64,000 bases of DNA from Thermococcus peptonophilus (GTDB lineage: Archaea; Methanobacteriota_B; Thermococci; Thermococcales; Thermococcaceae): contig NZ_CP014750.1 in NCBI RefSeq assembly GCF_001592435.1, forward strand, positions 620,001 to 684,000. Direction: 5' to 3'. The position numbers and the translations under genes were made by a program. The notes under the pieces are model-generated. The model saw nothing but the letters and a program-made list of their open reading frames with translations. It ran no database searches and was not told where the DNA came from. This document shows, piece after piece, positions 31,112-63,171 of the stretch. Numbering within the stretch: position 1 is the first letter of the stretch; the number at the start of each line of letters is the position of its first letter.

Positions 31112-33432
<2,321 letters not shown>

Positions 33433-33475
33433 GATGAACACCTCCGTACATGAGACCAAATCTGGACATCTAAAG

Positions 33476-33526: not shown

Positions 33527-33606
33527 GGCGAAGGTTTTTCAGCCCGACCTTAGAAGAGTGGAAGAAATGTTTTTAATTGACCATGAGAAGTGAGCCGGGG
33601 ATTGCT

Positions 33607-35181: not shown

Positions 35182-35239
35182 TATTTACCACCAGAAGGGT
35201 TTTAACGGCTTAACTTTTAAATCTTGCCGGGTGAAGAGA

Positions 35240-35809: not shown

Positions 35810-36031
35810 GGGAACCACCTCGGAGTTTTACGATATTATTTTAACGGGCGTTAATTTAAGCTTTTCGCAGGAGCTGTATATTCAAAACCCCCCAGTTCTA
35901 GGAGGCATTTAAATGAACATTAGCATACATTTTTTGCGGGCACACTTCAGAACCATAGTCGAAAGATTTATTATGTACTACCTAGATACCTAGAAATGCC
36001 TTAATGTGTTTAATTTCGGAGGGATGTCCAC
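35810..36031 (+). promoter_or_regulatory. oppA promoter region with inverted AGGCATTT sites
   Basis: TATA TTTATTA at 35967-35973 puts the transcript start near 35995. AGGCATTT (35903-35910, within the palindrome CATTTAAATG at 35906-35915) is repeated inverted as AAATGCCT (35994-36001) over the start site, 84 bases apart. Beside it, ACCTAGAT and ACCTAGAA form an 8-base tandem pair (35980-35995). These look like operator sequences; no regulator assigned. Ribosome binding site GGAGGGATG. Confidence 0.45.
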
Positions 36032-38152: not shown

Positions 38153-38190
38153 TTTTAGTTTTTTCCTTTTTGCAGTCTTTTTCGAATTTT
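38153..38190 (+). terminator. T-rich transcription end after oppA
   Basis: TTTTAGTTTTTTCCTTTTTG starts right after the oppA stop and is followed by CTTTTTCGAATTTTTTAG, three T-runs in 38 bases with no hairpin. This is the usual archaeal termination signal and may lower transcription into the permease genes, so that binding protein exceeds transporter. Confidence 0.55.
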
Positions 38191-38197
38191 TTAGTCC

Positions 38198-38241
38198 GAT
38201 GAAACGTAAATTTATAAGTTTCGAGCACCATTGAAACGTAA
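38198..38241 (+). promoter_or_regulatory. Promoter of dppBCDF with flanking direct repeats
   Basis: TATA AAATTTATAAG at 38206-38216 predicts transcription near 38240. TGAAACGTAA occurs on each side, at 38198-38207 and 38231-38240, 33 bases apart. Such a pair around a TATA box suggests a repressor site. The permease genes therefore can be read separately from oppA. Confidence 0.45.
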
Positions 38242-38262
38242 CAGCATGCAGAGGTGATAGGG

Positions 38263-39264
38263 TTGGCCAACCTGAAGAAGTTCCTCGTGAGGAGAACTCT
38301 AACGTTTATACCAACAATAATCGGAGTTACCCTGATAGTCTTCCTCATAGCCTACGTCATTCCAGCGGATCCGGCCAGGGCCTGGGCGGGTGGTGAGAAG
38401 GCAAGCCAGCAGGCCATAGAAAGGGTGAGAAAAGCCTACCACATAGACGACCCATGGTACGAGCAGTACTGGTTCCTCATGAGCAGTCTCGCGAAGAACA
38501 AGCTGATAGACCCGAGGACGTCAAACTACGTGTTCGATGACGTGGGTAAATACTTTCCCGTGACGTTTGAACTAGCGCTTATAGCGTTCGTGTTTATCAT
38601 AATCATCGGAATCCCGCTCGGTATCATTGCTGCCCTTAAGAGGAACACCTGGATTGATACCATCGTCAGAATTTTCGCACTCACCGGCGTCTCCATGCCC
38701 GTTTTCTGGCTTGGCTACCTGCTCATCTACATATTCTTTGTGAAGTGGCGCGTCATAACCCTCGCCGGCTTCCCTGCACCGCCTGAACACACGATAACAC
38801 ACATTCCGATGATAGACGCTCTCCTCACCGGAGACTTCCAGACGTTCTACCAGCACATCCACAGGCTGTGGCTTCCTGGCTTCACCCTCGGCTTCATGAG
38901 CTCCGGCGTGCTCGCTAGGTTCGTCAGGAACTCCTTCCTTGAAGCCCTCAGCAGCGACTACGTCGCTTTCCTCAAGGCCAAGGGTGTCCCCAAGCTCAGG
39001 ATATACAGGCACGCCCTCAAGAACGCCCTCGTGCCGATAGTTACAGTCCTTGGTCTCCAGTTCGGCGGTCTTCTCGGCGGAACTCCGATTACCGAGACGG
39101 TCTTCGGCCTTCCCGGAATGGGTTCCTACGCTATAGACTCCATCCGGAATCTGGACTTTCCAGTGGTCGTTGCAATAACCTTCGTCTATGCCATAATCTT
39201 CGTGACCACGAACCTGATAGTTGACATCCTCTACGCGGTCATAGACCCAAGGGTGAGGTACTGA
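38263..39264 (+). CDS. dppB: Peptide ABC transporter permease, DppB type
   Basis: A 333-residue permease with six predicted helices. The first helix is LTFIPTIIGVTLIVFLIAYV. The EAA loop that docks on the ATPases is near residue 225: DYVAFLKAKGVPKLRIYRHA followed by LKNALVPIV. The typical end is a helix followed by YAVIDPRVRY. It forms the channel with DppC. The start is TTG 38263 after AGAGGTGATAGGG. It is 10 bases from dppC. Confidence 0.92.
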   Translation: MANLKKFLVRRTLTFIPTIIGVTLIVFLIAYVIPADPARAWAGGEKASQQAIERVRKAYHIDDPWYEQYWFLMSSLAKNKLIDPRTSNYVFDDVGKYFPVTFELALIAFVFIIIIGIPLGIIAALKRNTWIDTIVRIFALTGVSMPVFWLGYLLIYIFFVKWRVITLAGFPAPPEHTITHIPMIDALLTGDFQTFYQHIHRLWLPGFTLGFMSSGVLARFVRNSFLEALSSDYVAFLKAKGVPKLRIYRHALKNALVPIVTVLGLQFGGLLGGTPITETVFGLPGMGSYAIDSIRNLDFPVVVAITFVYAIIFVTTNLIVDILYAVIDPRVRY

Positions 39265-39274
39265 GGTGGTTGAA

Positions 39275-40456
39275 ATGCAGGAAGAGTACAAGAAAGGCAT
39301 CCTCGACAGGCTCGCCGATAAATTTGTTGATCTCCTCGGCTCGTTCATATCCCTCTTCAAAAAGGACTGGAAGAAAAAGAACCGCTCCAAGATGGAAGAA
39401 TGGCGCCTTATGCTCTACGCCCTCAACCGCTCGCCGCCTGGCCTAATAGGCCTCGTCCTCGTCCTCATGTTCGTCTTCCTCGGAGTATTCGGCCCGCGGT
39501 TGGCCCCGTGGGACTACAGGTTCTTCCCCTCACTTTACAACCCGAACACATACCTCGCTCCACCGGGCTCAACTTTCACCCTCAATGTTACCGAGCTTAA
39601 GGACGGCCAGTTCATAAACTATGTGACACAGATACACTACACCCTCGGGGCTGACCACTACGGCAGGGACCTTGTCAGCCTCATCCTCTACGGTGCAAGG
39701 GTCTCCTTTGTGATTTCAATAATAGTCATAGTGCTCGGCGTTCCCCTCGGTATAATCCTCGGCCTTATAGCTGGCTACTACGGTGGCAAAGTTGACGAAC
39801 TTATCATGCGTATAACAGACATGTTTCTGGCCTTTCCCGCGCTGATACTAGCGATAGCCTTCTCGGCGGTGCTACCGCAGAGACTTCAGATGTTCATATC
39901 CTCTCATGAGACCCTTGAAAAGATTGTCCTCTGGCTCTTTGCCTTGCAACCCCAGGACGCTGGAAACCTAGGAAAACTGCTGGCGGTCATCTTTGCAATG
40001 ATCATAGTCTGGTGGCCGGGCTACGCGAGGATAACGAGGGGCTCAACGCTCACTGAAAAGGAGAACCTCTACGTTGAAGCGGCAAGGGCAATAGGTCTCA
40101 GCTCAAGGACGATAATGTTCAAGCACATTCTCCCCAACATCATAGGCCCGATACTCGTCTACGTCACCCTCGACTTCGGCGGGGTTGTCCTAATGGAGGC
40201 AGGGCTGAGCTTCCTCGGGCTCGGTGCGACGCCGCCGATAGCCGACTGGGGCAGGATAGTCTACGACGGTTCCCAGTACTTCCCCGAGAAGTGGTGGCTG
40301 GTCACGTTCTCGGGCTTCATGATCATGCTCGTGGCGCTCGGCTGGAACCTGCTTGGAGACACCCTCAGGGACATCCTCGACCCGAAGACGAGGAGGAGCA
40401 TTGAGTTCAAGGTAAAGAAGGCCAAGCAGATGGAGGAGGGTGAGGGCAATGCCTGA
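39275..40456 (+). CDS. dppC: Peptide ABC transporter permease, DppC type
   Basis: A 393-residue permease with six helices and a long charged N-terminal tail (residues 1-45, KKDWKKKNRSKMEEWRL). An outside loop of about 90 residues follows helix 1. HYGRDLVSLILYGARVSF is the family mark before helix 2. The EAA loop reads VEAARAIGLSSRTIMFKHIL with PNIIGPILVYV. It pairs with DppB. ATG 39275 follows GAGGTGGTTGAA. Its end overlaps dppD by eight bases. Confidence 0.92.
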   Translation: MQEEYKKGILDRLADKFVDLLGSFISLFKKDWKKKNRSKMEEWRLMLYALNRSPPGLIGLVLVLMFVFLGVFGPRLAPWDYRFFPSLYNPNTYLAPPGSTFTLNVTELKDGQFINYVTQIHYTLGADHYGRDLVSLILYGARVSFVISIIVIVLGVPLGIILGLIAGYYGGKVDELIMRITDMFLAFPALILAIAFSAVLPQRLQMFISSHETLEKIVLWLFALQPQDAGNLGKLLAVIFAMIIVWWPGYARITRGSTLTEKENLYVEAARAIGLSSRTIMFKHILPNIIGPILVYVTLDFGGVVLMEAGLSFLGLGATPPIADWGRIVYDGSQYFPEKWWLVTFSGFMIMLVALGWNLLGDTLRDILDPKTRRSIEFKVKKAKQMEEGEGNA

Positions 40457-41429
40457 ACCTATCCTCGAAGTTAGGGACCTCACAGTTCACTTCTACACCT
40501 ACGCAGGAATCGTCAAGGCCATAGAAAAGGTCTCCTTCGACGTTTACAAGGGTGAAACCTTCGCGCTGGTTGGAGAAACCGGATGTGGAAAGAGTGTAAC
40601 CTCAAGGGCGCTCACCCAGCTAATAGAGAGTCCTGGAAGGATCGTTGGGGGAAAAGTCATCTACCACAGGGATGACGGCTCGACGGTTGACCTCCTAAAG
40701 CTGAGTGAAGAGGAGATAAGAGAGATCAGGGGCAAAGAGATAGCCTACATCTTTCAGGATCCTCACGCTTCCCTCGATCCGCTCTACACTGTCGGCTACC
40801 AGATAGCCGAGGCCATGGTGGTTCACAAGACGGTCAAGGATTGGAAGGAGGGCTTTAAGAGGGCAGTTGACATCCTCCGCCAGGTTCTCATCCCAGATCC
40901 TGAGAAGAGAGTAAAGAACTACCCCCATGAGATGAGCGGAGGTATGAAGCAGCGTGTGGTCATTGGGATAGGAGTCTCGAACAACCCAAGGATACTCATA
41001 GCTGACGAGCCGACGACTGCCCTCGACGTTACGGTTCAAGCGCAGATTCTCGACCTCATGAACGAGCTGAAGAGGAAATACAACACCACTCTTATACTGA
41101 TCACACACAACATGGGTGTTGTAGCCGAGATGGCAGACAGGGTCGCCGTGATGTACGCTGGAAAGATAGTCGAGGTAGGCTCTGTTGACCAGATCTTCAA
41201 GAACCCGCTGCACCCGTACACGAAGGGCCTTCTCAGGGCCGTCCCGAACCCGCTTGGAAAGATAGAGAAGCTCGAGGCAATTCCTGGAACGGTGCCGAAC
41301 CTCATAACACCGCCCGCCGGCTGCCGCTTCCACCCGAGGTGCCCATACGCCAGCGAAGTCTGCAGGCAGAAGATCCCCGAGCTGAAGGAGATAGAGCCGG
41401 GCCACTTCGTTGCCTGCCACCTGTACTGA
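40449..41429 (+). CDS. dppD: Peptide ABC transporter ATPase, DppD type
   Basis: A 326-residue ATP-binding subunit. Walker A is GETGCGKS (about residue 42), the Q-loop is IFQDPHASLDPL, and the signature is EMSGGMKQRVVIG. Walker B is ILIADEPTTALDV, with the H-switch in ITHNMGVV. The C-terminal oligopeptide-transporter extension has the cluster-like Cys set CRFHPRCPYASEVC plus a later Cys (FVACHLY), which in some homologues binds [4Fe-4S]. It powers uptake with DppF. ATG 40449 fits GGAGGGTGAGGGCA. dppF follows. Confidence 0.92.
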   Translation: MPEPILEVRDLTVHFYTYAGIVKAIEKVSFDVYKGETFALVGETGCGKSVTSRALTQLIESPGRIVGGKVIYHRDDGSTVDLLKLSEEEIREIRGKEIAYIFQDPHASLDPLYTVGYQIAEAMVVHKTVKDWKEGFKRAVDILRQVLIPDPEKRVKNYPHEMSGGMKQRVVIGIGVSNNPRILIADEPTTALDVTVQAQILDLMNELKRKYNTTLILITHNMGVVAEMADRVAVMYAGKIVEVGSVDQIFKNPLHPYTKGLLRAVPNPLGKIEKLEAIPGTVPNLITPPAGCRFHPRCPYASEVCRQKIPELKEIEPGHFVACHLY

Positions 41430-41439
41430 GGTGATGAAA

Positions 41440-42417
41440 GTGAGCGAGCCAATACTCAAGGTTGAGCACCTGAAGAAGTATTTCCCCGTTAGGGGCCTCT
41501 TCAAGACCATCGGCTATGTCAAGGCGGTCGACGATATCAGCTTTGAAATCTACCCCGGTGAAACCTTCGGTCTCGTCGGTGAGAGCGGTTGCGGAAAGAC
41601 TACAACCGGAAGGACGATCCTCAGACTCATAGAACCGACCAGCGGGATGATCATCTTCAAGGGAAAGGACGTGACGAAGCTCAAGGGCGACGAGATGAAG
41701 TGGTTCAGGCGGCATGCTCAGATAATGTTCCAAGACCCATACTCATCCCTCAACCCGAGGCAGACGGTCTTTGAGATAATCATGGAGCCCGTGAGGTTCC
41801 ACGGCATAGAAGTTGACGACCCCGAGGAGTTCGTCATAAGGCTCCTAGAGAGCGTCGGTCTAAACGAGATGCACCTCTACCGCTATCCCCACGAGTTCTC
41901 CGGCGGACAGAGGCAGAGGATAGCACTCGCGAGACTCTTAGCTTTAAAGCCAGAGTTCATCGTTCTTGACGAGCCTACATCGGCACTTGACGTTTCAGTC
42001 CAAGCAAACATCCTCAACACTCTGAAAGACCTCCAGAAGAAGTACGGCTTTACCTACCTCTTCATTTCCCACGACCTTGGTGTCGTCAAGTACATGAGCC
42101 ACAGGATAGGAGTGATGTACCTTGGAAAGCTGGTAGAAGTTGGCCCAGCGGACAGGATATTCGAGAACCCGCTCCACCCGTACACCAAGTTCCTCCTCTC
42201 GGCGATACCAGTTCCCGACCCGGAACTTGCTAGGGAACTCAAGAAAAAGCGCATGAAGGTTGAAGGCGAGCCGCCGAGCCCGATAAACCCGCCCGCCGGC
42301 TGCCGCTTCCACCCGAGATGTCCCTTCGTGATGGACAGATGCAGGAAGGAAAAACCGCCACTTATTGAAGTTGAGAAAGACCACTATGTCGCCTGCTGGC
42401 TCTACGCCAAGTCCTAG
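41440..42417 (+). CDS. dppF: Peptide ABC transporter ATPase, DppF type
   Basis: A 325-residue ATP-binding subunit. Walker A GESGCGKTT, Q-loop MFQDPYSSLNPR, signature EFSGGQRQRIALARLL, Walker B FIVLDEPTSALDVS and H-switch FISHDLGVV are all intact. The C-terminal Cys set CRFHPRCPFVMDRC plus a Cys in YVACWLY mirrors that of DppD. GTG 41440 is preferred, with GAGGTGAT five bases upstream; ATG 41434 lies within the site. The stop overlaps the convergent hypothetical gene by four bases. Confidence 0.92.
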   Translation: MSEPILKVEHLKKYFPVRGLFKTIGYVKAVDDISFEIYPGETFGLVGESGCGKTTTGRTILRLIEPTSGMIIFKGKDVTKLKGDEMKWFRRHAQIMFQDPYSSLNPRQTVFEIIMEPVRFHGIEVDDPEEFVIRLLESVGLNEMHLYRYPHEFSGGQRQRIALARLLALKPEFIVLDEPTSALDVSVQANILNTLKDLQKKYGFTYLFISHDLGVVKYMSHRIGVMYLGKLVEVGPADRIFENPLHPYTKFLLSAIPVPDPELARELKKKRMKVEGEPPSPINPPAGCRFHPRCPFVMDRCRKEKPPLIEVEKDHYVACWLYAKS

Positions 42418-42980
42418 CCCTTTTCTCCTTTTATCCTGAGCCAGCTCAGGGCCATTCCTGCTATGGGGTCGACCTTGAAGAGCTCCCTGTAAACCGGGTC
42501 ATTAACATTTCCGCCTTCTATTTCGAGTTCAAAAATGCCATACCCCTCGAATTCTATCCCCGCTTTCTCAATATCTTCAGGCTTTTTTATACCGAGCACT
42601 TTCCTTAGTATCGCCAACGCCAGCAGTGCCTCCCGGTTCTCGCGCGCCAGTTCTTCTTCCTTCTCAACGTGCCTCTGGTGACCTGACGGAATCCCAATGA
42701 GCCTTAACAGGTTCCAGCGCCTTATGTGGCTCGTCCTTTCTTTCATTCTCTCGCCGCTCAGTTCGTAGAGCTTGGAGAACAGCCCTAAAAGGTACTCCTC
42801 AACATCTTCTCCGCTGAGAAGGGCGGTTGACGGTTTTTTGGAGATCAGCTTCAAGTCCTCCGCCTTCCGGATGAGCGTTGCCCTCCGCTCTACTTTCTCA
42901 ACGTTCAGGAAAAAGTAAGCATCAAGTCCATACTCCCCGGTTTTTGTCCTAAACACCACATAGGGCACATCAACTTTCAT
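42414..42980 (-). CDS. Uncharacterised 188-residue protein
   Basis: A soluble protein: an N-terminal beta part (VPYVVFRTKTGEYGLDAYFF), then a long helical region rich in Glu/Arg (EKVERRATLIRKAEDLKL; KEEELARENREALLALAIL), ending SWLRIKGEKG. It resembles no family I can name. ATG 42980 has a weak upstream site. It shares a 73-bp divergent region with hel308 and is convergent with dppF. Confidence 0.65.
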   Translation of the reverse strand: MKVDVPYVVFRTKTGEYGLDAYFFLNVEKVERRATLIRKAEDLKLISKKPSTALLSGEDVEEYLLGLFSKLYELSGERMKERTSHIRRWNLLRLIGIPSGHQRHVEKEEELARENREALLALAILRKVLGIKKPEDIEKAGIEFEGYGIFELEIEGGNVNDPVYRELFKVDPIAGMALSWLRIKGEKG

Positions 42981-43053
42981 CCATCACACCGTGCATATCT
43001 CAGCGGTAGGCATATAAAACCACTTTCCTCACTCCATCGGGATGTGAGCGGAG

Positions 43054-45222
43054 ATGAAGGTTGATGAGCTTCCCGTTGATGAGAGGATAAAGCGCGTTAT
43101 CAGGGGAAGGGGTATTGAAGAGCTTTACCCACCCCAGGCAGAGGCACTGAAAAGCGGCGTTCTTGAAGGAAAGAACCTCGTGTTAGCTATTCCAACGGCG
43201 AGCGGAAAGACCCTTGTGAGCGAGATAGTGATGGTGAACAAGCTCTTAAGCGAGGGCGGAAAGGCCGTCTACCTCGTCCCACTCAAGGCCCTCGCCGAGG
43301 AGAAATACCGTGAGTTCAAGGAGTGGGAAGTCCTCGGTCTGAGAGTCGCCGCAACGACAGGGGACTACGATTCAACCGACGAATGGCTCGGAAGGTACGA
43401 CATCATAGTAGCTACCGCCGAAAAGTTTGACTCCCTTCTGAGACACGGGGTAAGCTGGATTAAGGATGTGAAGCTCGTTGTTGCCGACGAAGTCCACCTC
43501 ATAGGCTCGTACGACAGAGGAGCAACGCTTGAGATGATACTCACCCACATGCTTGGAAAGGCCCAGATTTTGGCCTTAAGTGCCACCGTCGGAAATGCTG
43601 AAGAGCTCGCAGAGTGGCTGGACGCTTCCCTCGTGGTCAGTGACTGGCGTCCGGTGGAGCTGAGGAAAGGCGTCTTTCACCTCGGCCAGCTCTTCTGGGA
43701 AGACGGTAAAATCGACCGCTATCCTGAGAACTGGGAGAGTCTGGCAGTTGATGCAGTTAAAAAAGGAAAGCAGGCTTTAGTTTTTGTCAACACGCGGAGG
43801 GGTGCCGAGAAGGAGGCAATCTCACTTTCATCCAAAGTTTCAAAACTTCTCACAAAACCTGAAACCAGAAGGCTCGAGGAGCTGATCTCCTCCATAGAGG
43901 ACAACCCAACTACGGAGAAGCTCAAACGCGCCCTGCGGGGAGGAGTAGCCTTCCACCACGCCGGCCTGAGCAGGACAGAGAGGACGCTGATAGAGGATGC
44001 ATTCCGCTCCAGAACTGTAAAAGTCATCGTAGCAACGCCGACATTGGCCGCAGGAGTGAATACTCCTGCCTTCCGCGTAATAATCCGCGATACAAAGAGA
44101 TACGCCAACTTCGGCTGGATAGACATCCCCGTTCTGGAGATACAGCAGATGATGGGTCGCGCTGGAAGGCCGAAGTACGACAAGGTCGGTGAGGCCATCA
44201 TCGTCGCGAGAACCGAAGACCCCAAGAAGCTAATCGACAAGTACATCCATGGAAAACCTGAGAAGCTGTTCTCGATGCTGGCCAACGAGCAGACCTTCAG
44301 GAGTCAGGTTCTGGCGCTGATAACCAACTTTGGCGTCGAGGACTTCAGGGAGCTGATTGAGTTCCTCTCAAGGACTTTCTACGCCCACCAGAGGGGTGAT
44401 ACTTCCTCGCTCGAGTACAAGGCCAAGGACATCGTCTACTTCCTGATAGAGAACGAGTTCATCGACATGGACATCGAGAACCGCTTTATAGCGCTCCCGT
44501 TTGGAAAGAGAACATCCCAACTCTACATAGACCCCCTCACGGCAAAGAAGTTCAAAGACGCTTTTCCGGCCATCGAGAGGAACCCGAACCCCTTCGGCAT
44601 ATTCCAGCTCCTTGCCTCAACCCCAGATATGGCCACTCTCACAGCCAGAAGGCGGGAGATGGAAGACTATCTCGATTTGGCCTACGAGATGGAGGAGCAC
44701 CTATATTCGAACATTCCCTACTACGAAGACTCCCGCTTCCAGGGCTTTCTGGGACAGGTCAAGACCGCCAAAGTCCTCCTCGACTGGATAAACGAAGTCC
44801 CGGAAGCGAGGATATACGAGACCTACAACATAGACCCCGGCGACCTGTACAGAGTCCTTGAACTCGCCGACTGGCTGATGTACTCTCTCATCGAGCTCTA
44901 CAAGCTCTTCGAGCCGAAGGAAGATGTCCTCCAATACCTCCGCGACCTGCACCTCCGCCTGAGACATGGTGTACGGGAGGAGCTCCTTGAGCTGGTTAAG
45001 CTGCCCAACATTGGAAGAAGAAGGGCGAGGGCGCTCTACAACGCTGGCTTCAGGAGTGTTGACGACATACTGAAGGCAAAGCCGAAGGATCTCCTCCAGG
45101 TAGAGGGAATCGGTCTGAAAATCCTTGAGGGGATTTACAGACACCTCGGCGTTGAATACACAATCTCAGAGAAGGAAAAGCCGAAGAAACGGAAGGGGAA
45201 CCTCTACGACTTCCTCAAGTAG
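43054..45222 (+). CDS. hel308: ATP-dependent DNA helicase Hel308
   Basis: A 722-residue superfamily 2 helicase. Motif I is AIPTASGKTL (about residue 48), motif Ia is VPLKALAEEK, and motif II is DEVH. Motif III is ALSATVGNAEELAEW, motif IV is AFHHAGLSRTER-like (VAFHHAGLSRTERTL), and motif VI is QMMGRAGRP. The winged-helix and ratchet domains follow, and the end has helix-hairpin-helix (LPNIGRRRARALYNAGF) plus a basic tail. It unwinds 3'-to-5' at stalled forks and works with Holliday-junction repair. ATG 43054 has GGATGTGAGCGG before it; TATA ATATAAAA is at 43009-43016. It ends 137 bases before a kinase-like gene. Confidence 0.95.
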   Translation: MKVDELPVDERIKRVIRGRGIEELYPPQAEALKSGVLEGKNLVLAIPTASGKTLVSEIVMVNKLLSEGGKAVYLVPLKALAEEKYREFKEWEVLGLRVAATTGDYDSTDEWLGRYDIIVATAEKFDSLLRHGVSWIKDVKLVVADEVHLIGSYDRGATLEMILTHMLGKAQILALSATVGNAEELAEWLDASLVVSDWRPVELRKGVFHLGQLFWEDGKIDRYPENWESLAVDAVKKGKQALVFVNTRRGAEKEAISLSSKVSKLLTKPETRRLEELISSIEDNPTTEKLKRALRGGVAFHHAGLSRTERTLIEDAFRSRTVKVIVATPTLAAGVNTPAFRVIIRDTKRYANFGWIDIPVLEIQQMMGRAGRPKYDKVGEAIIVARTEDPKKLIDKYIHGKPEKLFSMLANEQTFRSQVLALITNFGVEDFRELIEFLSRTFYAHQRGDTSSLEYKAKDIVYFLIENEFIDMDIENRFIALPFGKRTSQLYIDPLTAKKFKDAFPAIERNPNPFGIFQLLASTPDMATLTARRREMEDYLDLAYEMEEHLYSNIPYYEDSRFQGFLGQVKTAKVLLDWINEVPEARIYETYNIDPGDLYRVLELADWLMYSLIELYKLFEPKEDVLQYLRDLHLRLRHGVREELLELVKLPNIGRRRARALYNAGFRSVDDILKAKPKDLLQVEGIGLKILEGIYRHLGVEYTISEKEKPKKRKGNLYDFLK

Positions 45223-45348
45223 TTCTTTGTGCTTCTTCAAAATATCCCGAGCCAGCAACTCACAGAGATCCCTTTGTAGGAGATAACCTATCATATGGTG
45301 GCTTTCCACGTTAGTCTTTACTTTAGATTCCTGATACCTAACCACCAT
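45166..45348 (-). CDS. Possible small protein or gene remnant
   Basis: A 60-codon frame from ATG 45348 running into the 3' end of hel308 (57-base overlap). Its first 46 residues contain ESHHMIGYLLQRDLCELLAR and DILKKHKELLEE, a composition that looks protein-like (helical, charged) rather than shadow-like. The final residues, VVEVPLPFLRLFLL, are shadow of hel308. It could be a short antitoxin-type gene or a remnant whose end was lost. No clear ribosome binding site. Confidence 0.25.
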   Translation of the reverse strand: MVVRYQESKVKTNVESHHMIGYLLQRDLCELLARDILKKHKELLEEVVEVPLPFLRLFLL

Positions 45349-45389
45349 CAGGTTTTTAAATGGGTTTCCAGCTACTTCTGGTGGGCACG

Positions 45390-45947
45390 ATGATAGTCAT
45401 AGTAACAGGAATGCCCGGTTCTGGGAAGAGTAAAATCGTAAAGGAGTTTGAAAAGAGGGGTTTTCCAAGCGTTTCTCTCGGGGACATCGTGAGGGAGGAA
45501 ACCCTAAAGCGCGGCCTTGAGCTTACCAAGGAGAACGTTGCCAAGGTCAGCATACGGCTTAGACAGGAACTCGGACAGAACGCTGTGGCAAAGCTCGCCG
45601 TTGAGAAGGTAAAAGCGCTTTTAAAGGGTTCAAAAGTCGTCGTTATAGACGGCGTCCGTTCCCTTGATGAGGTCGGAACCTTTAGGGGGGCTTTTCCGGA
45701 AGAGAAAATTATTATAGTTGCAGTCCACACACCACCGAGACAGCGCTTCGAGAGGCTCAAGGCGAGGGGCAGACACGACGACCCTCAGACCTGGGAGGAC
45801 TTTGAGGAGAGGGACTGGAAGGAGCTCCGCTTTGGCATTGGGGGAGTTATAGCGATGGCCGACTATATGGTGGTGAACGACGGCTCCAGGGAGGAATACG
45901 AACGAACAGTGAGAAAGCTCGTTGATGAAATCCTCTCGAAGCTTTGA
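45390..45947 (+). CDS. P-loop nucleotide kinase-like protein, UPF0200
   Basis: A 185-residue protein with Walker [10 protein letters not shown] at the N terminus, a [14 protein letters not shown] segment like the nucleoside-monophosphate lid, [13 protein letters not shown] (Walker B type) and [14 protein letters not shown] (mobile lid with Arg). It resembles adenylate/dephospho-CoA kinases and is the UPF0200 family, whose substrate is unknown. ATG 45390 follows CTGGTGGGCACG. TATA TTTTTAAAT is at 45353-45361. UPF0201 follows after 43 bases, a pairing common in archaea. Confidence 0.82.
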
Positions 45948-45990
45948 GAAGCTTTTTAATCCCCTTCCCCAATCCAGGCAGGGTGAGACC

Positions 45991-46407
45991 ATGAGCGAGC
46001 TGTTTGAGGAAGTTGAGGTTGAGGCTTACGTTTACCCGACGGAGGACATTGAGAAGGTAAAGAGAGCGATGCTCAACCTTATCCCAGACTTGGAGTTCGA
46101 GGCCTTTGACAAGGGAGATTACATAATCCTCACCGGAAAGACCAGGAGCAGGAAAGCCCTCAGCAGGCTCTATGAACTCTTCAGGGGGCAGGCGATACTT
46201 GATACTGCGAGAAGCTTCCTTGAGGAGGGCTACTTCGGCGAGGAGATAATCATTAAGGTGAACAAGCAGGCCGCTTATGCAGGTGTTGTTAACTTCAACG
46301 AGGAGAGCCCGCTCGGCCCGATAACGATAATCATAAGGACGAAAGACCCGCAGAGGCTCATGAAGTGGCTCGCGCCGAGGACTAAGGACGGCGTTCCGAT
46401 AGAGTGA
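45991..46407 (+). CDS. UPF0201 protein
   Basis: A 138-residue protein matching the archaeal UPF0201 family: [42 protein letters not shown], and the C-terminal [20 protein letters not shown]. It has the alpha/beta shape of an RNA-binding fold, and the family is thought to bind RNA, though its role is unproved. ATG 45991 follows CAGGGTGAGACC. It sits directly after UPF0200 and ends 17 bases before the convergent ABC permease gene. Confidence 0.82.
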
Positions 46408-46423
46408 AAGATGGAAGAAAAAG

Positions 46424-47695
46424 TCATGCCCTCTTCTTTCCCCAGCTTATCTTTGCCGTTAGAACCTTCTCGCTTGAGAAGACCCTCGCCGTCAGGTAGA
46501 GGGTTATGAGGGCCACAACTGCAAGGTAAGCGACGCTGAAGAGCATTGGGGCATACTCACCGGTTATAGCGTACCTGTAGGCCGCTATCGGGTGGGTAAA
46601 CGGGATCGCCAGCAGGCCGTAGCGGGCAAAGGCCGGAAGCTGGGAGAGGTCGACAAACATCAGCAGGAAGGCCGGAAAGGCCAGCGGCAGGATAACCGAA
46701 CTTACAACCGTGTTGGCGCTCTGGACGTCCTCAGCGTAAACCGCTAGGAGCATAGCTAGAGAGAGCGCAAAGACTATCGTCAAGAACACAACGAGGGTGA
46801 ATAGGAGCATTCCCTCGGGAGTAACTCCAAGACCAAGGTCACTTAGACTTATCCCTGTCTCTGTCTGGAAGGTGCCGAGATAGCTCCTCAAACCGACCAT
46901 GTAGGCTAAAGCCGCGATGAGACCCATAACCGCTGTTCCAGTTATCTTCGACGCTACTATCGTCGTCCTCTTCACCGGAAGGGTCAGCAGGGTCTCTAAG
47001 GTTTTATTCTCCTTCTCGGCCGCCACTGCTCCAGCCGACATCTGGGCGGTTATCGTGACCATCAGGAACACTATGATCGGCAGGCTGGTGGACTGGGAGG
47101 CGAGGACGGACGAAACGAGCGAGGGCGAAACGTCCACTACCCTGCCGCGGATGACTGACCTGCTGACCGCGTTGATCGGGTGCAACACGGCATCGGGATT
47201 TTCAAAGCCCGCGTTCTTTATTTTTATCTTCGCAAGCTCTTCTGAGAGCACATCTAGGACAGCCTTTATTCTCGCCTCGCTGACGCTCTCCCTGATTCCC
47301 GTTCCGATGGTGTTGAATATGCCGTATATCTCCACCTCAGCCCTCTGGTTGTTTTCTATCGCCGCGCTGAAGTTATCTGGAATAACAACAAGGACGTTTT
47401 GTTTCATAGCAGAGGCCTTTTTGAGGGCTTCTTTAGGCGAGGACACGCTTATAACGGTAACCGTCACGTTTGGAGTAACGTTAAGTGCCCTTATCAAAAG
47501 CTCACCGTACTTTCCGTCGTCGAAGTTGGCTATCGCGACGTGGGTTTCCTTCTGAGCCTGTTCTATCCCAACCTGCATCATCTTCCCGAGGGCAGGGTAA
47601 AGAACAAGGGGGACAATGATTAGGCCAAAGAGGAGCTTCTTATCTCTGATGAGGTTCATTATCTCCTTTTTTGCAAGAACCCAGAAGTCGCTCAT
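46424..47695 (-). CDS. ABC-2 type permease (NatB-like)
   Basis: A 423-residue exporter permease. Its first helix (LLFGLIIVPLVLYPALG, about residue 20) is followed by a large outside domain (residues 45-210). Five helices come next in the C-terminal half, with the ABC-2 feature EKENKTLETLLTLPVKRTTI (about residue 230) before helix 2. Similar to NatB of the Na+-exporting NatAB. It pairs with the ATPase just upstream, which its start overlaps by four bases. Substrate unknown (Na+, a peptide or a drug). Last gene of a six-gene minus-strand operon. Confidence 0.85.
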   Translation of the reverse strand: MSDFWVLAKKEIMNLIRDKKLLFGLIIVPLVLYPALGKMMQVGIEQAQKETHVAIANFDDGKYGELLIRALNVTPNVTVTVISVSSPKEALKKASAMKQNVLVVIPDNFSAAIENNQRAEVEIYGIFNTIGTGIRESVSEARIKAVLDVLSEELAKIKIKNAGFENPDAVLHPINAVSRSVIRGRVVDVSPSLVSSVLASQSTSLPIIVFLMVTITAQMSAGAVAAEKENKTLETLLTLPVKRTTIVASKITGTAVMGLIAALAYMVGLRSYLGTFQTETGISLSDLGLGVTPEGMLLFTLVVFLTIVFALSLAMLLAVYAEDVQSANTVVSSVILPLAFPAFLLMFVDLSQLPAFARYGLLAIPFTHPIAAYRYAITGEYAPMLFSVAYLAVVALITLYLTARVFSSEKVLTAKISWGKKRA

Positions 47696-48450
47696 GAGCC
47701 TTCACCCCCAACTGGCTCCGGAATCTCGACGCCAACGGCCCTCATGAAGACCTCCTCGAGGTTTTCGGCGTCGTACTTCTCCTTCAGCTCGGCTGGAGTT
47801 CCAGACTCGACGATCCTCCCCTCGTTTATCAAGGCAACCCTGTCGCAGAGGAACTCAACTTCGAGCATGTTGTGGCTGGAGACCAGGAAAGTAACGCCCT
47901 TCTCCCTGGCGAAGCTCTTTATCGTCTTCCTTATCGTGTAGGCGTTGACTATGTCCAGACCGCTAGCGGGTTCATCCAGGATGGCCAACTTTGGCCTCAC
48001 CATCAGCGCCCTCGCGAGGAGGAGCTTCCTCGTCATCCCCTTGGAGTACGTCGAGACCTTATCTCTGAGCCTGTCGCCGAGGCCGGCTATTTTAATTCCA
48101 AGCTCAACCATCTCCTCCGCTTTCCTCTCGTCCTTCGCGTAGAGCCTCGCCATTAGGCGTAGGTACTCAAGTCCGGTCAGGTTCTTGTAGGCTCCCGCCT
48201 CCTCAGGAAGGTAGCTTATCAGCGCCCTTACTTTCTCTGCTTCCTCAACGACATCGTGGCCAAAGACTTCCGCTTTTCCGCCGGTTGGACGGAGAAGCGT
48301 TGCGAGTATCTTGAGCGTGGTACTCTTCCCAGCCCCGTTTGGGCCTATGAGTCCGAATATTTCCCCCTCTTTGATCTCAAAGCTTATCCCCTTCAGGGCC
48401 TTGACCTTTCCGTAGTCTTTCTCAAGGCCCTCAACGAGGACTGCCTTCAT
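47692..48450 (-). CDS. ABC transporter ATPase (NatA-like)
   Basis: A 252-residue ATP-binding protein. Walker A GPNGAGKST (about residue 35), Q-loop YLPEEAG, signature VSTYSKGMTRKLLLARAL (YSKGM in place of LSGGQ, seen in this exporter class), Walker B LAILDEPASGLD and H-switch SSHNM. It drives the ABC-2 permease downstream. It overlaps the upstream small membrane protein gene by four bases. Co-regulation by the XRE protein encoded two genes upstream is likely. Confidence 0.9.
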   Translation of the reverse strand: MKAVLVEGLEKDYGKVKALKGISFEIKEGEIFGLIGPNGAGKSTTLKILATLLRPTGGKAEVFGHDVVEEAEKVRALISYLPEEAGAYKNLTGLEYLRLMARLYAKDERKAEEMVELGIKIAGLGDRLRDKVSTYSKGMTRKLLLARALMVRPKLAILDEPASGLDIVNAYTIRKTIKSFAREKGVTFLVSSHNMLEVEFLCDRVALINEGRIVESGTPAELKEKYDAENLEEVFMRAVGVEIPEPVGGEGS

Positions 48451-48806
48451 TTCAATCCCCCCAGTTTGTAGAGGAGCAGACCAAGAGTCGCGAGCAAAGC
48501 GCCGAATATGACAACCTCATTCAGTTCCGAAAAACCTCCGATTATGGCGATGCCGAGCCCGCTCACCACTCCAAGCCACCCGTTACGCTCGTGGGTGTTT
48601 TTGAATGGGTGGCCGAGAGCAACGAGGAGAGAACCTATCATCACAAGCCCGAGGTGGAGCGTGAGAAAGAACGGGTTGATGCCCGTGCAGACCTCTCCAC
48701 TGGGGAGCACTGTGCAGGCCAACCTATCTACTGGAGGCCGGATAACTGAAAGAACCAAGGCTAGAGCGTAGAGCACTTCCCCAGCCAGTTTCTCGTTGAT
48801 ATTCAT
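48447..48806 (-). CDS. Small membrane protein of the XRE/ABC operon
   Basis: A 119-residue protein with about four membrane helices (VLYALALVLSVI; FFLTLHLGLVMIGSLLVALG; WLGVVSGLGIAIIGG; VVIFGALLATLGLLLY). Two Cys lie in an outside loop (RLACTVLPSGEVC). No family recognised. ATG 48806 has GGGTGACTAGA upstream and lies just before the end of the regulator gene, so it is coupled to it. It may be an accessory subunit of the exporter. Confidence 0.7.
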   Translation of the reverse strand: MNINEKLAGEVLYALALVLSVIRPPVDRLACTVLPSGEVCTGINPFFLTLHLGLVMIGSLLVALGHPFKNTHERNGWLGVVSGLGIAIIGGFSELNEVVIFGALLATLGLLLYKLGGLK

Positions 48807-48807
48807 T

Positions 48808-49005
48808 CTAGTCACCCTCGTAAATGAATATGTCCTCAATATTGAGCCCAAAAAACCTTGCTATCTTGAAAGCGAGCTTGAGGGATGGGTCGTACTTTCC
48901 CTTTTCAATGGCGATTATAGTCTGTCTCGTAACGCCGAGGGCCTTTGCGAGCTCCTCTTGGGTCAAGCCACGCTCCTCTCTCAGCTCGCGGAGACGGTTC
49001 TTCAT
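48808..49005 (-). CDS. XRE-family transcriptional regulator
   Basis: A 65-residue helix-turn-helix protein, essentially only the Cro/C1 domain: RLRELREERGLTQEELAKAL then GVTRQTIIAIEKGKYDPSLK, ending IEDIFIYEGD. Such small regulators, set beside DUF2178 membrane proteins, are common in archaea and Firmicutes. ATG 49005 follows AGGATGTGACT. It is the third gene of a six-gene operon whose promoter carries two copies of a palindrome (49804-49835), the likely binding sites for autoregulation. Confidence 0.9.
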   Translation of the reverse strand: MKNRLRELREERGLTQEELAKALGVTRQTIIAIEKGKYDPSLKLAFKIARFFGLNIEDIFIYEGD

Positions 49006-49007
49006 AG

Positions 49008-49307
49008 TCACATCCTCCTTGCATAGTACGCCCTGAATACCCAGATGCCAAAGAACATCATCAGAAAGATTATCAGAGCCGTGTCCCTGGCGGCGCTGTT
49101 TTTTGTGATAAACCAGTGATAATACAGCAAAATCATGTCCCCAATCATGACGAGCTTAAGGGTGCTAATGGCCGCCCGTTTGTCTATTCCCATCGCCCTC
49201 TCATCGGGAGGAATACCAATTTCCTTAAGCATAAGTCTTGTCATCAAAACTCCGAGAATAGCCCCGCCAACAAGGGAGACAATTGCAACAATGGTCAATT
49301 CGTCCAT
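49008..49307 (-). CDS. DUF2178-like membrane protein
   Basis: A 99-residue protein with three helices (LTIVAIVSLVGGAILGVLM; LKLVMIGDMILLYYHW; TALIIFLMMFFGIWVF) and a conserved-looking loop PDERAMGIDKRAAI between the first two, as in DUF2178 proteins (DER...). The downstream XRE gene begins three bases before its stop region. No biochemical role is known; it may sense membrane state and influence the regulator. ATG 49307 after GAGGGTGATGTGA. Confidence 0.75.
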   Translation of the reverse strand: MDELTIVAIVSLVGGAILGVLMTRLMLKEIGIPPDERAMGIDKRAAISTLKLVMIGDMILLYYHWFITKNSAARDTALIIFLMMFFGIWVFRAYYARRM

Positions 49308-49787
49308 TCACATCACCCTCGAATAGTATTGGAGCAGTGCCCAGTGGAGCACAAAGACGAGGGCAAGGACACCAGAAACGACCTTGAATGCCATTTCGAG
49401 CTCCGGATTCATTGTCTTTTCCACGGAAAAATACACCGTCAAAGCGGCCAGGAGGAGCATTGTAACCTGAAGCGTCCTTCTCGAAGCGGCCTCCTCTATC
49501 CTCAGCGTCCTCTCATCACTCAGAACATAGCCCCTTTTTTCAAGCTCTCTGTAGTAGATGTGAAGAAGGATAGCACCTGCCATGAAGACTGAAAAGGCCG
49601 CTGCAAGATTATCATTGCTAACCGTCCAGCCGAGGAAGTAGCCCATAGTAAGGACTACGAGAAAAGCCGGGATGGAAGCCTTTCTGCGTTCACTGTCTTC
49701 CGATCGCTTCGAGAGAATCAGGAGAGTGAGGAAAGCTCCTAAGACAATCCCAGCCCAGAGTAGGATGCTCTCAAGGGCTTCGTTCAT
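49308..49787 (-). CDS. DUF2178-like membrane protein, first gene of operon
   Basis: A 159-residue protein with four or five helices (SILLWAGIVLGAFLTLLIL; FLVVLTMGYFLGW; AAAFSVFMAGAILL; VTMLLLAALTVYF; VVSGVLALVFVLHWALL) and the loop LSDERTLRIEEAASRRT, similar to the DER loop of its neighbour. ATG 49787 follows AGGTGGTGGAAGTA. It is directly downstream of the double operator, so it is first on the transcript. No recognised enzyme activity. Confidence 0.75.
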   Translation of the reverse strand: MNEALESILLWAGIVLGAFLTLLILSKRSEDSERRKASIPAFLVVLTMGYFLGWTVSNDNLAAAFSVFMAGAILLHIYYRELEKRGYVLSDERTLRIEEAASRRTLQVTMLLLAALTVYFSVEKTMNPELEMAFKVVSGVLALVFVLHWALLQYYSRVM

Positions 49788-49803
49788 TACTTCCACCACC
49801 TAT

Positions 49804-49847
49804 GTAAAGTTTACTTTACGTAAAGCTTCCTTTACATCATTATAAAT
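49804..49847 (-). promoter_or_regulatory. Promoter with tandem palindromic operator
   Basis: Two adjoining copies of GTAAAG-N4-CTTTAC: 49804-49819 (spacer TTTA) and 49820-49835 (spacer CTTC). The minus-strand TATA ATTTATAAT is at 49839-49847, so transcription should start near 49818, inside the operator. Binding there would block transcription. The likely ligand is the XRE protein encoded in the same operon. Confidence 0.75.
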
Positions 49848-49856
49848 TTTTCCCCA

Positions 49857-49868
49857 AAATTTTTAAAT
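49857..49868 (+). promoter_or_regulatory. tRNA-Leu promoter
   Basis: AAATTTTTAAAT just upstream gives a TATA box centred near 49864, about 29 bases before the tRNA 5' end at 49893, matching archaeal tRNA promoters. It is within 20 bases of the divergent TATA of the XRE operon. Confidence 0.6.
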
Positions 49869-49892
49869 CTCGGATGAAAAGGGTAAGACGAA

Positions 49893-49980
49893 GCGGGGGT
49901 TGCCGAGCCTGGTCAAAGGCGGTGGACTCAAGATCCACTCCCGTAGGGGTTCCGGGGTTCAAATCCCCGCCCCCGCACCA
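49893..49980 (+). tRNA. tRNA-Leu (anticodon CAA)
   Basis: An 88-base class II tRNA with CCA encoded. The acceptor GCGGGGG pairs with CCCCCGC, the D arm is GCC...GGC, and the anticodon stem GTGGA/TCCAC holds loop CTCAAGA (anticodon CAA, codon UUG). A long variable arm follows (TCCCGTAGGGGTTC), then the T arm CGGGG-TTCAAAT-CCCCG. No intron. Confidence 0.96.
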
Positions 49981-49983
49981 TTA

Positions 49984-50024
49984 CAAACTTCGCCTGCGCG
50001 AAGTTTGATCAAGGTTCGTGGTTC
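49984..50024. repeat. Left inverted repeat with hairpin
   Basis: CAAACTTCGC-CTGC-GCGAAGTTTG (49984-50007) is a 10-bp hairpin, followed by ATCAAGGTTCGTGGTTC. The whole block is repeated in inverted form at 50243-50283 with few changes, right after the tRNA gene (3 bases). Confidence 0.75.
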
Positions 50025-50121
50025 CGTTTAAAACTACTTTTCTGCCAGGATTTTCAAGATACACAAGCTAGCATTAGTGAATTCCCAATTTCAGCCTTCT
50101 AAAAGGAGTTTCTAACACCCC

Positions 50122-50137
50122 GACGCCCTACAGCGTC
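50122..50137. repeat. Central hairpin of unit 1
   Basis: GACGC-CCTACA-GCGTC, 5-bp stem. It lies 256 bases before the matching hairpin of unit 2. Confidence 0.5.
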
Positions 50138-50242
50138 CATTACAAAGCGAACTCACACCGGGAGCCCTTGCTAAAATCGAATTCGCACTCATACAGCGAG
50201 CTCCTGAATGAAAATCTCTCCCCAGAACCACCTTCTAATCAA

Positions 50243-50283
50243 GAACCACGAACTTTGATGAAACTTTGCAAAGCAAAGTTTCA
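50243..50283. repeat. Right inverted repeat with hairpin
   Basis: GAACCACGAACTTTGATG runs into an 11-bp hairpin (50259-50283: TGAAACTTTGC-AAA-GCAAAGTTTCA). It is the inverted partner of 49984-50024: about 22 bases match with two changes outside the hairpin. Confidence 0.75.
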
Positions 50284-50377
50284 GCGCTGGCGGAAGAAAA
50301 GTATGCGTTTTTAAGCACGCTCATTTTATGAGGGTTTACTTTCAATTGGCCAATTCAAAGGATTTTTCTCACCGTAT

Positions 50378-50394
50378 AGTGCCCAAAGGGCACT
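50378..50394. repeat. Central hairpin of unit 2
   Basis: AGTGCCC-AAA-GGGCACT, a 7-bp stem, preceded by CACCGTAT and followed by an A-run. AATTGGCCAATT (50344-50355), a 12-bp palindrome, lies 22 bases upstream. Confidence 0.65.
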
Positions 50395-50515
50395 AAAAAG
50401 AAAGCTAAAATCACAATTAGCGGGAAGATTTGGAATTAAACCCTTGTGAGCCCGCCTTCTAGGAGACCATACGCTTACAAGAGAGCAAGTTCAAAAAGAA
50501 AGGAACATTTTTGGT

Positions 50516-50556
50516 CAAGCTTTTCCAAAAGCTTGCTAGAAAAGTTTCATCAAAGA
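50516..50556. repeat. Boundary hairpin of units 2 and 3
   Basis: CAAGCTTTT-CC-AAAAGCTTG (50516-50535), a 9-bp stem, followed by AAAGTTTCATCAAAG, which matches part of the inverted repeat at 50243-50283 read on the other strand. Confidence 0.65.
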
Positions 50557-50636
50557 GAGAATGTCTTTTTAAACTGCTAAGTTTCCAGCGATTCTCTCAC
50601 TTCAATTAGCGGTTTTAACGGGGTTTACTCACAATA

Positions 50637-50655
50637 TAACGCCCGAAAGGCGTTA
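50637..50655. repeat. Central hairpin of unit 3
   Basis: TAACGCC-CGAAA-GGCGTTA, a 7-bp stem, preceded by CACAATA and followed by an A-run, 260 bases after the matching hairpin of unit 2. Confidence 0.65.
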
Positions 50656-50737
50656 AAAAATAAGAAAATCCGCATTCCCTTGCCCGTTCACCGGGGGAAT
50701 CCTCTATTCTCAGCTAATTTCAAGAAGACATCCACGC

Positions 50738-50782
50738 TTTTGGTGAAGCTTTTTCTAAACGCTTCCTCGTGAAGTTTGATTA
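50738..50782. repeat. Right-end hairpin block of unit 3
   Basis: TTTTGGTGAAGCTTTTTC...GCTTC...GAAGTTTGATTA aligns with the block at 50508-50552 (TTTTTGGTCAAGCTTTTCC...AAAGTTTCATCA). GAAGC/GCTTC at 50745-50765 form a weak stem. Confidence 0.55.
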
Positions 50783-50973
50783 TTAAGCTTAGAAACACCG
50801 CACTGCGAGCTTAAAATGAAGTCTCAATGTAGCGTAAAATATTGAACTACACCTTCCAGGTTCATGGGTGCATAATTGATAACACAACAACTTAACATAA
50901 AATATCAGTAAAATGAAAGCACTTTCGATGACCTTATAATCTTTAATTCGAAAATCCTTCGGGTGATTCTGGT

Positions 50974-61968: not shown

Positions 61969-63171
61969 ATGGAAATGATACCTCTTTTGATGGGTCTCCT
62001 AACTGGTATTTTGGCATCGTACACGGACATAAAAACGGGCTTTGTCTTCGATGTGCACGCGTTCCCAACACTTCAGCTCATTGGGAAACTGCTCGGATGG
62101 GAAGAGGAGGAAGACGATGTTGGGCTTCCCAAGTGGGTTGAACGAATAATCATACCCTCTGCCGAGATAGGAATTCTTTACTACCTGTACCTTGGACTCA
62201 AAAGCGGGGACACTCTTCTGGCACTTTCTGGACTCATTGGGCTTTTAGTAGGTTTTGGACTCGGCCTTCTCCTGTACTATATAGGCGCTTGGGCCAGCGG
62301 TGATGTGGTAATACTTGCCGCGTTCTCCGCACTTCTACCCCTTGCTCCCTCGACCGCTAAGATTGTCCCACCTTATGGAAACGGGTACCCACTTTACCCA
62401 ATCTCCATACTGTTCAACAGCATCCTTGCGGTCTTTCCGTTTATAATAGCCTATGCACTTGGGGTTCTTATCGTGAGAAAGGAAAAAGACGTCATAAAGG
62501 GAATTTTCACCGAAGGCGTAAGGGACACCATTGAGGTAACGCTGTGGATAATGTTAGGGATAGCAGTTACGGCCCTGCTGAACCCCAACAGGCCTCTGCT
62601 CGGACTTCTCGTAACTATCCTTGCGTTTCCGATATTCCTCAGATACCGCACAATGGGAGATGCCCTCGGAGTTGCAGGCATTCTCTACCTTCTGTACCTC
62701 CAGTCGGATACGGCACTCTTCGCCCTGTTAAAGGTGCTTGCAACTATTTACGCTGTAAAGATTATCCTCTCGACGGTAAAAATACTCCGGGAAAAAGTCC
62801 TCGTGGAAGAAGTCCCAGTTGAGGAGCTCCGCGAATGGGACATCCTTGGTGAGACCATTCACGAAATTAACGGCGAGATAAAACGCGAGAGAGAAAGCAC
62901 CCTCGAACGGTTCAAAAAGGCACTATTGACAGGGGACTTCTCGAAAATTAGGCCGACCCTGGGTAGTGTAATAGCCTCCTCAACTGCAGAGGGACTCACC
63001 AAGGAGCAGATCGAAGAACTGAAGAAGCTCGTCGAACAAGGCAGGCTTGAGAACAGATTCCTGAGAAAGAAAGCGATGCCCTTTGCACCGGCCATATTCC
63101 TCGGCTTCCTGATAAGCTACTTCTGGGGAGACATCTTCTGGTGGCTGGAGCTTAAGATTATGGGCCTTTAA
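61969..63171 (+). CDS. Prepilin peptidase, A24 family (EppA/FppA type)
   Basis: A 400-residue membrane aspartyl protease with about nine predicted helices. The two catalytic Asp are in ASYTDIKTGFVFD (about residue 20) and GAWASGDVVILAAF (about 110, a GxGD-type motif). Large C-terminal soluble region (ERESTLERFKKALLTGDFSK) before the last helix. It cuts class III signals from pilins such as the gene just upstream. ATG 61969 follows GGCGGTGATAGA. Followed by a guide RNA cluster. Confidence 0.9.
   Translation: MEMIPLLMGLLTGILASYTDIKTGFVFDVHAFPTLQLIGKLLGWEEEEDDVGLPKWVERIIIPSAEIGILYYLYLGLKSGDTLLALSGLIGLLVGFGLGLLLYYIGAWASGDVVILAAFSALLPLAPSTAKIVPPYGNGYPLYPISILFNSILAVFPFIIAYALGVLIVRKEKDVIKGIFTEGVRDTIEVTLWIMLGIAVTALLNPNRPLLGLLVTILAFPIFLRYRTMGDALGVAGILYLLYLQSDTALFALLKVLATIYAVKIILSTVKILREKVLVEEVPVEELREWDILGETIHEINGEIKRERESTLERFKKALLTGDFSKIRPTLGSVIASSTAEGLTKEQIEELKKLVEQGRLENRFLRKKAMPFAPAIFLGFLISYFWGDIFWWLELKIMGL

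Follow-up and report, generated by a model that had tools for sequence, protein, structure and literature searches.

Several kinds of dispersed or clustered repeats have been described in prokaryotic genomes. REP, BIME and REPIN sequences are bacterial dispersed extragenic palindromic repeats with units of about 20-40 bp and an associated RAYT transposase. Integrons are made up of tandem gene cassettes with attC sites, an integron integrase and a single attI anchor. MITEs have terminal inverted repeats, target-site duplications at scattered targets and a related autonomous element, and CRISPR loci carry identical 20-40-bp direct repeats, unique spacers and cas genes. The locus analyzed here, an island behind a tRNA-Leu gene, belongs to a family of non-coding repeats whose units are longer than those of REP or CRISPR. 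We found no prior description of this family in the open-access literature; one may exist elsewhere.

A three-unit island and its relatives

The window is a 64,000-nucleotide stretch of this 1.9-Mb genome (G000), corresponding to G000:C1:620001-684000. Positions 49981-50973 lie between the end of tRNA-Leu(CAA) (49980, ARAGORN) and the start at 50974 of the next gene, which encodes an AOR-like protein of 633 amino acids. Inspection of ORFs in this 993-base interval identified none that was plausible, in agreement with the original prediction, made from the sequence alone, that it is non-coding, and no Rfam match above gathering score was obtained that would place it in a known structured RNA. 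The island consists of three units, in the order A-B-C, of a non-coding repeat family whose arrays are anchored at the 3' ends of Thermococcus tRNA genes (Table 1). Three units with central hairpins, separated by boundary hairpins, had been predicted, and all were found; the central hairpin centers are approximately 257 and 260 bp apart. The inverted repeats of about 40 bases said to surround the first unit are also real (49998-50024 and 50243-50269, 27 bp, 89% identity). The likeness noted between units 2 and 3 extends to unit 1, which belongs to the same family, as iterated profiles merge all three types. The last 100 bp or so before the AOR gene are also conserved 5' of AOR in other species, and the junction of array and distal flank is a synteny breakpoint.

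Table 1. Features of the island (window coordinates) and positions of arrays in genome G011, taken to be T. kodakarensis KOD1
Feature	Position	Strand	Remarks
tRNA-Leu(CAA)	49893-49980	+	ARAGORN; anchors island array; CCA gene-encoded
Unit A	49984-50283	+	block starts about 30-31 bp apart
Unit A left hairpin	49984-50007	+	
Unit A left blocks	50018 GTGGTTC, 50049 GATTTTC, 50079 GAATTC, 50106 GAGTTT	+	
Unit A central hairpin	50122-50137	+	
Unit A mirrored right blocks	50149 GAACTC, 50178 CGAATTC, 50210 GAAAATC, 50243 GAACCAC	+	
Unit A right hairpin	50260-50282	+	
Unit B	50283-50543	+	
Unit B left blocks	50301 GTATGC, 50332 GGGTTTAC, 50360 GGATTTTT	+	
Unit B central hairpin	50378-50394	+	
Unit B mirrored blocks	50407, 50436, 50467	+	
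Unit B right hairpin	50516-50535	+	
Unit C	50538-50782	+	
Unit C left blocks	50559 GAATGTC, 50590 GATTCTC, 50621 GGGTTTAC	+	exactly 31 bp apart
Unit C central hairpin	50638-50654	+	
Unit C mirrored blocks	50665, 50696, 50727	+	exactly 31 bp apart
Unit C right hairpin	50745-50765	+	
Distal flank	50783-50973	+	AOR gene upstream region; outside array
G011 arrays 1-5	62039-62837, 259713-260337, 319208-320058, 424340-424684, 655165-655815		
G011 arrays 6-10	685213-686077, 1127023-1127895, 1201631-1202661, 1240951-1241448, 1249504-1250265		
G011 arrays 11-15	1311354-1311891, 1320176-1321206, 1349342-1349765, 1482752-1483636, 1499211-1499666		
G011 arrays 16-20	1722937-1723369, 1726096-1727156, 1769773-1769991, 1910266-1911333, 2048875-2049875		

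When the island was used as a blastn query on the genome that carries it, 53 matches were obtained, scattered over about 17 places. To read the gap as decayed DNA is wrong, for it is one of approximately 17 arrays in the genome. We counted 17 arrays in G000, all intergenic, from stretches around matches and tRNAs, and about 20 in G011. Iterated profiles started from units A, B and C converged on a single family. As every unit is a quasi-palindrome, members are matched on both strands; the first locus set contained 161 units. With blastn the family was detected in 35 of 61 relatives, every one of them in the genus. A covariance model of the unit center extended this to 54 of 61 genus genomes, so that the unit does recur in relatives, with sporadic occurrences in three other genera of the taxonomic family and none in the nine genomes of genus g12 (Pyrococcus-like). 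Plasmids, phages and viral contigs gave no match, and a plasmid or virus origin was therefore rejected.

Unit architecture and anchoring to tRNA genes

Each unit is a dyad of 220-290 bp with a central palindrome, mirrored blocks and palindromic ends. The consensus consists of conserved 6-9-bp blocks with unconserved spacers of constant length between them, and the mirrored blocks, of 6-7 bp, recur every 31 bp or so, equivalent to three helical turns. Distances of the blocks from the dyad are about 21, 51 and 82 bp in types A, B and C, with an additional position at 113 bp in A, giving steps of 29-31 bp. Spacers measure 24±1 bp in both arms, and left and right lengths are uncorrelated. Terminal inverted repeats are present: type A ends in inverted repeats of about 40 bp, and the outer blocks are mirrored in A, B and C. 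Perfect central stems of at least 5 bp were found in 120 of 139 complete units, compared to 29 of 139 in shuffles; for stems of at least 7 bp the corresponding numbers were 101 and 3.

Blocks at mirror positions are complementary and covary. The outer block of A is paired at 0.91-0.93 versus 0.62-0.71 when permuted, and pairing in the spacers is at chance (0.35 versus 0.34). When 46 diverse units were aligned, 138 double-changed cells were counted in the central stem and two of the block pairs, compared to 48.9±9.2 in shuffles, which control relatedness incompletely, and to no more than 58 in slid controls, which are the better guard. Compensatory changes are thus present, and structure is kept while sequence drifts, as had been supposed. 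Mismatches in the hairpins included 62 G.T and 72 A.C; since G.T does not exceed A.C, the hairpins give no sign of G.U tolerance on either strand. Distal blocks had 130 G.T versus 79 A.C, mainly from two blocks. The rigid three-turn spacing and the absent G.U tolerance lead us to favor a unit that acts as duplex DNA rather than RNA. The 31-bp phasing would be explained most simply by an oligomeric protein binding one face of the duplex, and the mirror-symmetric architecture predicts such a DNA-binding protein.

In G000, 16 of 17 arrays begin directly behind a tRNA gene, and arrays extend outward from the tRNA, on the same strand. Sixteen of the 20 arrays in G011 are clearly behind tRNA genes; among those remaining, one lies beside a doubtful intron-type tRNA prediction and one beside a tRNA 3' fragment. 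Across 20 genomes, 54 of 67 arrays begin directly 3' of a tRNA, these loci having been picked by similarity to the island with its first unit included and the tRNA excluded. A sample picked independently with the unit-center model gave a similar picture, 19 of 20 loci adjoining tRNA genes. The exceptions among the 67 include three arrays behind a 3' tRNA fragment such as integration of an element into a tRNA leaves, and two pairs behind other small-RNA-like sequences; further ones are separated from a tRNA by about 80 bp or more. Approximately one third of tRNAs carry arrays.

The tRNA junction is the same for every unit type: CCA, 2-6 nt, then the left hairpin of A, B or C. At internal junctions only the loop and right arm of the left hairpin are retained behind the right hairpin of the previous unit. 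No direct duplications were found in array flanks, the junctions being RNA-gene 3' ends or other units; this agrees with the lack of tRNA 3'-end duplication noted earlier, as units begin 2-6 nt past CCA without any att-like duplication. The suggestion that the island is the remains of a mobile element using the tRNA as its target was supported in substance, given the placement of most arrays directly behind tRNA genes, but the word remains does not suit the proximal units, which are visibly under constraint.

Some loci have unusual anchors. At G000:C1:255910-258694 (L037/L139), about 2.7 kb separate tRNA-Val(TAC) from a tRNA-Val 3' fragment that precedes the array, as expected of a small integrated element splitting the tRNA. 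The array of two species is preceded by a short sequence that is rich in GC and in hairpins and has a TATA-like element upstream of it (L017, about 1810-1930; L019, about 1390-1510); this sequence lacks an Rfam match and is apparently a small RNA gene that escaped annotation. In two species a second short sequence, TTTAAAAGG..CCACCCTTTTGGGTTG..TTTTTTT, precedes arrays (L072, about 2411-2530; L027, about 1544-1660) and looks like another small transcription unit. Unit-like sequence also occurs straight after a protein-gene stop codon near tRNA-Gln in L177, L180 and L181; RNA genes are therefore not the sole anchors.

Turnover of arrays and synteny breakpoints

In 39 of 47 arrays the unit closest to the tRNA is better preserved than the distal one (p~2e-6), and the same polarity is seen without the seed genome (29 of 34 arrays, p~1e-5). 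Units of the same type are neighbors in 3 of 85 adjacencies. Both observations fit acquisition of cassettes beside the tRNA and decay farther out. Orthologous tRNAs of G000 and G011, whose coding DNA is about 90% identical, have differing arrays. The G011 ortholog of the tRNA-Leu(CAA) locus (G011:1201523), a comparison that the original prediction had put forward, also carries an array, which reads C-B-A-B versus A-B-C in G000. The arrays are A-C in G000 versus B-A-C in G011 at Ser, B-C versus C-B-A at Ile, and A-B-A versus B-C-B-A at Gln. Units at orthologous loci are often not mutual best matches, and vertical orthology of units was rejected; the B-A array at Ala in G000 matches the distal B-A of the G011 Gln array over 662 bp. 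No clean empty site was found, the Arg(cct) locus having 295 bp of non-unit DNA in G000 versus an array of about 1 kb in G011. Simple MITE insertion was rejected, there being neither a target duplication nor such a site.

Several units and loci are mosaic. In L055 (about 2073-2197) and L069 (about 1843-1967) the left half is of type C and the right half of type A, with the join in the central hairpin (TAACGCCC..GGGCGTC), which suggests that recombination took place at the unit center. A nested insertion of about 50 bp occurs at the same point in the A left hairpin in several species (L053, L050, L064, L067, L079, L081 and L082); it contains two small hairpins (CGTTGAAGC..GCTTCAACGCACGGGACG..AGTCCCGTTG) and resembles a mini-element within the element. 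Another insertion, of about 40 bp (CGCTTTCACTATCGTTCAAGCGTCCTTAACGGATG), recurs at unit junctions between AGCGC and GCGGAA in L048, L053, L074, L077 and L078. Finally, G000:C1:1493884-1494774 and G011:C1:1240853-1241448 have orthologous flanks with tRNA-Arg(TCG) in one and tRNA-Arg(CCG) in the other, and the tRNA gene itself has therefore seemingly been swapped.

The 5-kb flanks of the 17 G000 arrays were mapped onto stretches of G011, mainly array and tRNA regions. Eight arrays are collinear with one G011 array; for the other nine, the tRNA-side and distal flanks are at different places in G011, mostly at other arrays. Distal flanks lie beside G011 arrays in 16 of 17 cases, one of them 2 kb off. 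This share is partly by construction, since mapping used mainly array and tRNA stretches, but these make up only some 13% of G011; the share of breakpoints at arrays is approximate. When the flanks were followed outward, about 3 breaks were seen in about 132 gene gaps, compared to nine at the 17 arrays (odds ratio ~48, p~6e-8, both approximate). The island's tRNA side runs collinear to G011 1.167-1.183 Mb, followed in that genome by an insert of about 19 kb before tRNA-Leu, and its AOR side to G011 at about 60 kb. Elsewhere in the window, positions 1-20000 correspond to G011 89-111 kb and 30000-49900 to 1.167-1.183 Mb; the breakpoint between 20000 and 30000 has neither array nor tRNA, and arrays are therefore not the sole break sites.

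Among the genomes analyzed, G062 is presumably T. onnurineus NA1, G013 T. sp. 4557 and G035 T. nautili. The first two identities are supported by two inversions, which we located from tRNA positions and which measure about 142/136 kb and 73/99 kb. For T. onnurineus and T. sp. 4557, inversions close to these in size (139/143 and 102/74 kb) have been reported, with tRNA-Leu/tRNA-Gly and tRNA-Leu/tRNA-Thr at their borders; they were ascribed to tRNA genes and the pTN3 integrase, an enzyme that proved unable to recombine tRNA-Leu and tRNA-Thr (PMC5495485). The loci are the same as those found here; in our analysis the border of the Gly/Leu exchange lies 3' of the tRNAs, in the arrays. In this second inversion the flanks beyond tRNA-Gly(TCC) and tRNA-Leu(TAG) are exchanged, both tRNAs keep their upstream neighbors, and at three of the four junctions a stretch of unit sequence separates the tRNA from the exchanged flank; at the fourth, Gly in G013, no unit was detected. 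The first inversion is a more complex rearrangement, in which units were seen behind Leu(CAA) in both genomes and, in G013, also behind Pro.

Arrays are associated with breakpoints. Being intergenic, they are also tolerant of breaks, but the exchange of one array's flank for another's points to recombination of array with array and not to random breaks. The arrays may be causes of rearrangement rather than tolerated sites. Against this, array homology within one genome is 75-94%, below the identity over at least 500 bp reported for recombination in T. kodakarensis (PMC5495485).

Explanations considered and comparison with known systems

On balance we lean toward arrays of DNA-level cassettes at tRNA 3' ends that are turned over by insertion and ectopic recombination. 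Units would be acquired or replaced at the hairpin beside the tRNA 3' end by a putative recombinase or transposase acting in trans, and would decay once pushed outward from the tRNA. They would also recombine with units of other arrays, which would make arrays preferred sites of chromosome rearrangement. A more specific version, in which a putative recombinase adds one of a few palindromic cassette types at the hairpin beside the tRNA gene, same-type neighbors are excluded and exchange between arrays is a main route to inversions, is tentative, and we would sooner doubt it than rely on it. Thermococcus chromosomes rearrange fast, with hundreds of synteny blocks counted within the genus (PMC2718504), although insertion sequences and repeats had been considered scarce (PMC2718504, PMC5495485). 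A tRNA-3'-end cassette system, if true, would account for such rapid reshuffling in a genus with few insertion sequences, and the array family supplies, genus-wide, candidate recombination substrates at the published borders of tRNA-to-tRNA inversions. With array coordinates available in the genetically tractable T. kodakarensis, the question is directly testable.

Turnover and polarity could also arise without insertion, by homologous exchange, collapse of same-type neighbors and relaxed selection on distal units. The main rival reading, which matches the chromosome-organizing site among the original proposals, is a role in chromosome architecture, with units serving as host sites or insulators for a nucleoid protein and rearrangements a by-product of dispersed homology. 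Candidates are histones (about 30 bp per dimer), TrmBL2, and SMC loading or stalling beside highly transcribed tRNA genes; a study of SMC and TrmBL2 boundaries has reportedly been published for T. kodakarensis. Phasing at 31 bp on one face of the helix, mirrored blocks that are conserved between random spacers of fixed length, tRNA anchoring and persistence throughout the genus are all consistent with such a role, and archaeal histone particles grow by steps of about 30 bp (PMC11946384). Histones, however, show little sequence preference, orthologous tRNAs differ freely in the number and type of their units, distal units decay and two thirds or so of tRNAs lack arrays, and we consider this role rather unlikely. 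Nor does dif lie inside a unit. A guessed Pyrococcus dif motif had no match, a relaxed search located dif-like sites, and a dif/XerA function was rejected since no unit was found within 1.5 kb of the dif candidates checked.

A structured RNA, one of the functions originally proposed, would arise by read-through from the tRNA, folding into a hairpin-rich non-coding RNA or into 3' processing or termination structures. The arrays are indeed immediately downstream on the tRNA strand, their stems are covariant, the G.T excess in distal blocks is a weak hint, and T. kodakarensis has many orphan small RNAs (PMC4247193). As a main reading it was rejected: the island has no Rfam match, the hairpins show no G.T excess over A.C, the spacing is rigid with spacer lengths that do not co-vary, and at 85 C one would not expect a rod built from 6-7-bp helices and 24x24-nt loops, all of which makes such an RNA improbable. 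Slightly more improbable still are accessory sites or remnants of tRNA-targeting integrative elements of the pTN3/TKV or pT26-2 type, for example integrase arm sites left by excision. These elements do use Thermococcales tRNA genes as att sites (PMC8371274, PMC6972569), and the three arrays behind 3' tRNA fragments look as they would after integration, but the att sites lie within the tRNA 3' region and not in 220-290-bp units behind it. No tRNA duplication bounds the island, which showed neither a pTN3 or pT26-2 element nor an att site, and plasmids and phages gave no match. Provirus-like inserts sit between tRNA and array, and the array was therefore there first. Neutral decay with chance hairpins has low overall sequence identity in its favor and nothing further; recurrence, covariation, rigid spacing and tRNA anchoring make it vanishingly unlikely, and the prediction's fallback of ordinary decayed DNA falls with it.

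The cassette arrays that we favor can be compared with the systems named at the outset. They differ from CRISPR in having diverged units of 220-290 bp and no identical direct repeats. Like archaeal MITEs and palindrome-associated elements, the units are short, non-coding and present in many copies with inverted-repeat ends; unlike MITEs, they lack target-site duplications, have no autonomous relative among plasmids and phages, and stand behind RNA genes or other units in tandem arrays of constant orientation. The resemblance to integron cassettes lies in the tandem arrangement, in the presumed entry of new cassettes next to a fixed anchor, in the polarity from that anchor (in 39 of 47 arrays preservation is best beside the tRNA) and, with regard to attC, in palindromic recombination sites conserved in structure rather than sequence. 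Here, however, the cassettes have no ORFs, the array no integrase gene, and the anchors are many tRNA genes. REP, BIME and REPIN sequences share with our arrays a dispersed, extragenic, palindromic character, mosaics of a few alternating unit types, and a conserved structure with drifting sequence. The present units are far longer, at 220-290 bp with several 31-bp-phased mirrored blocks, and they are archaeal, anchored at tRNA 3' ends and of one orientation in each array.
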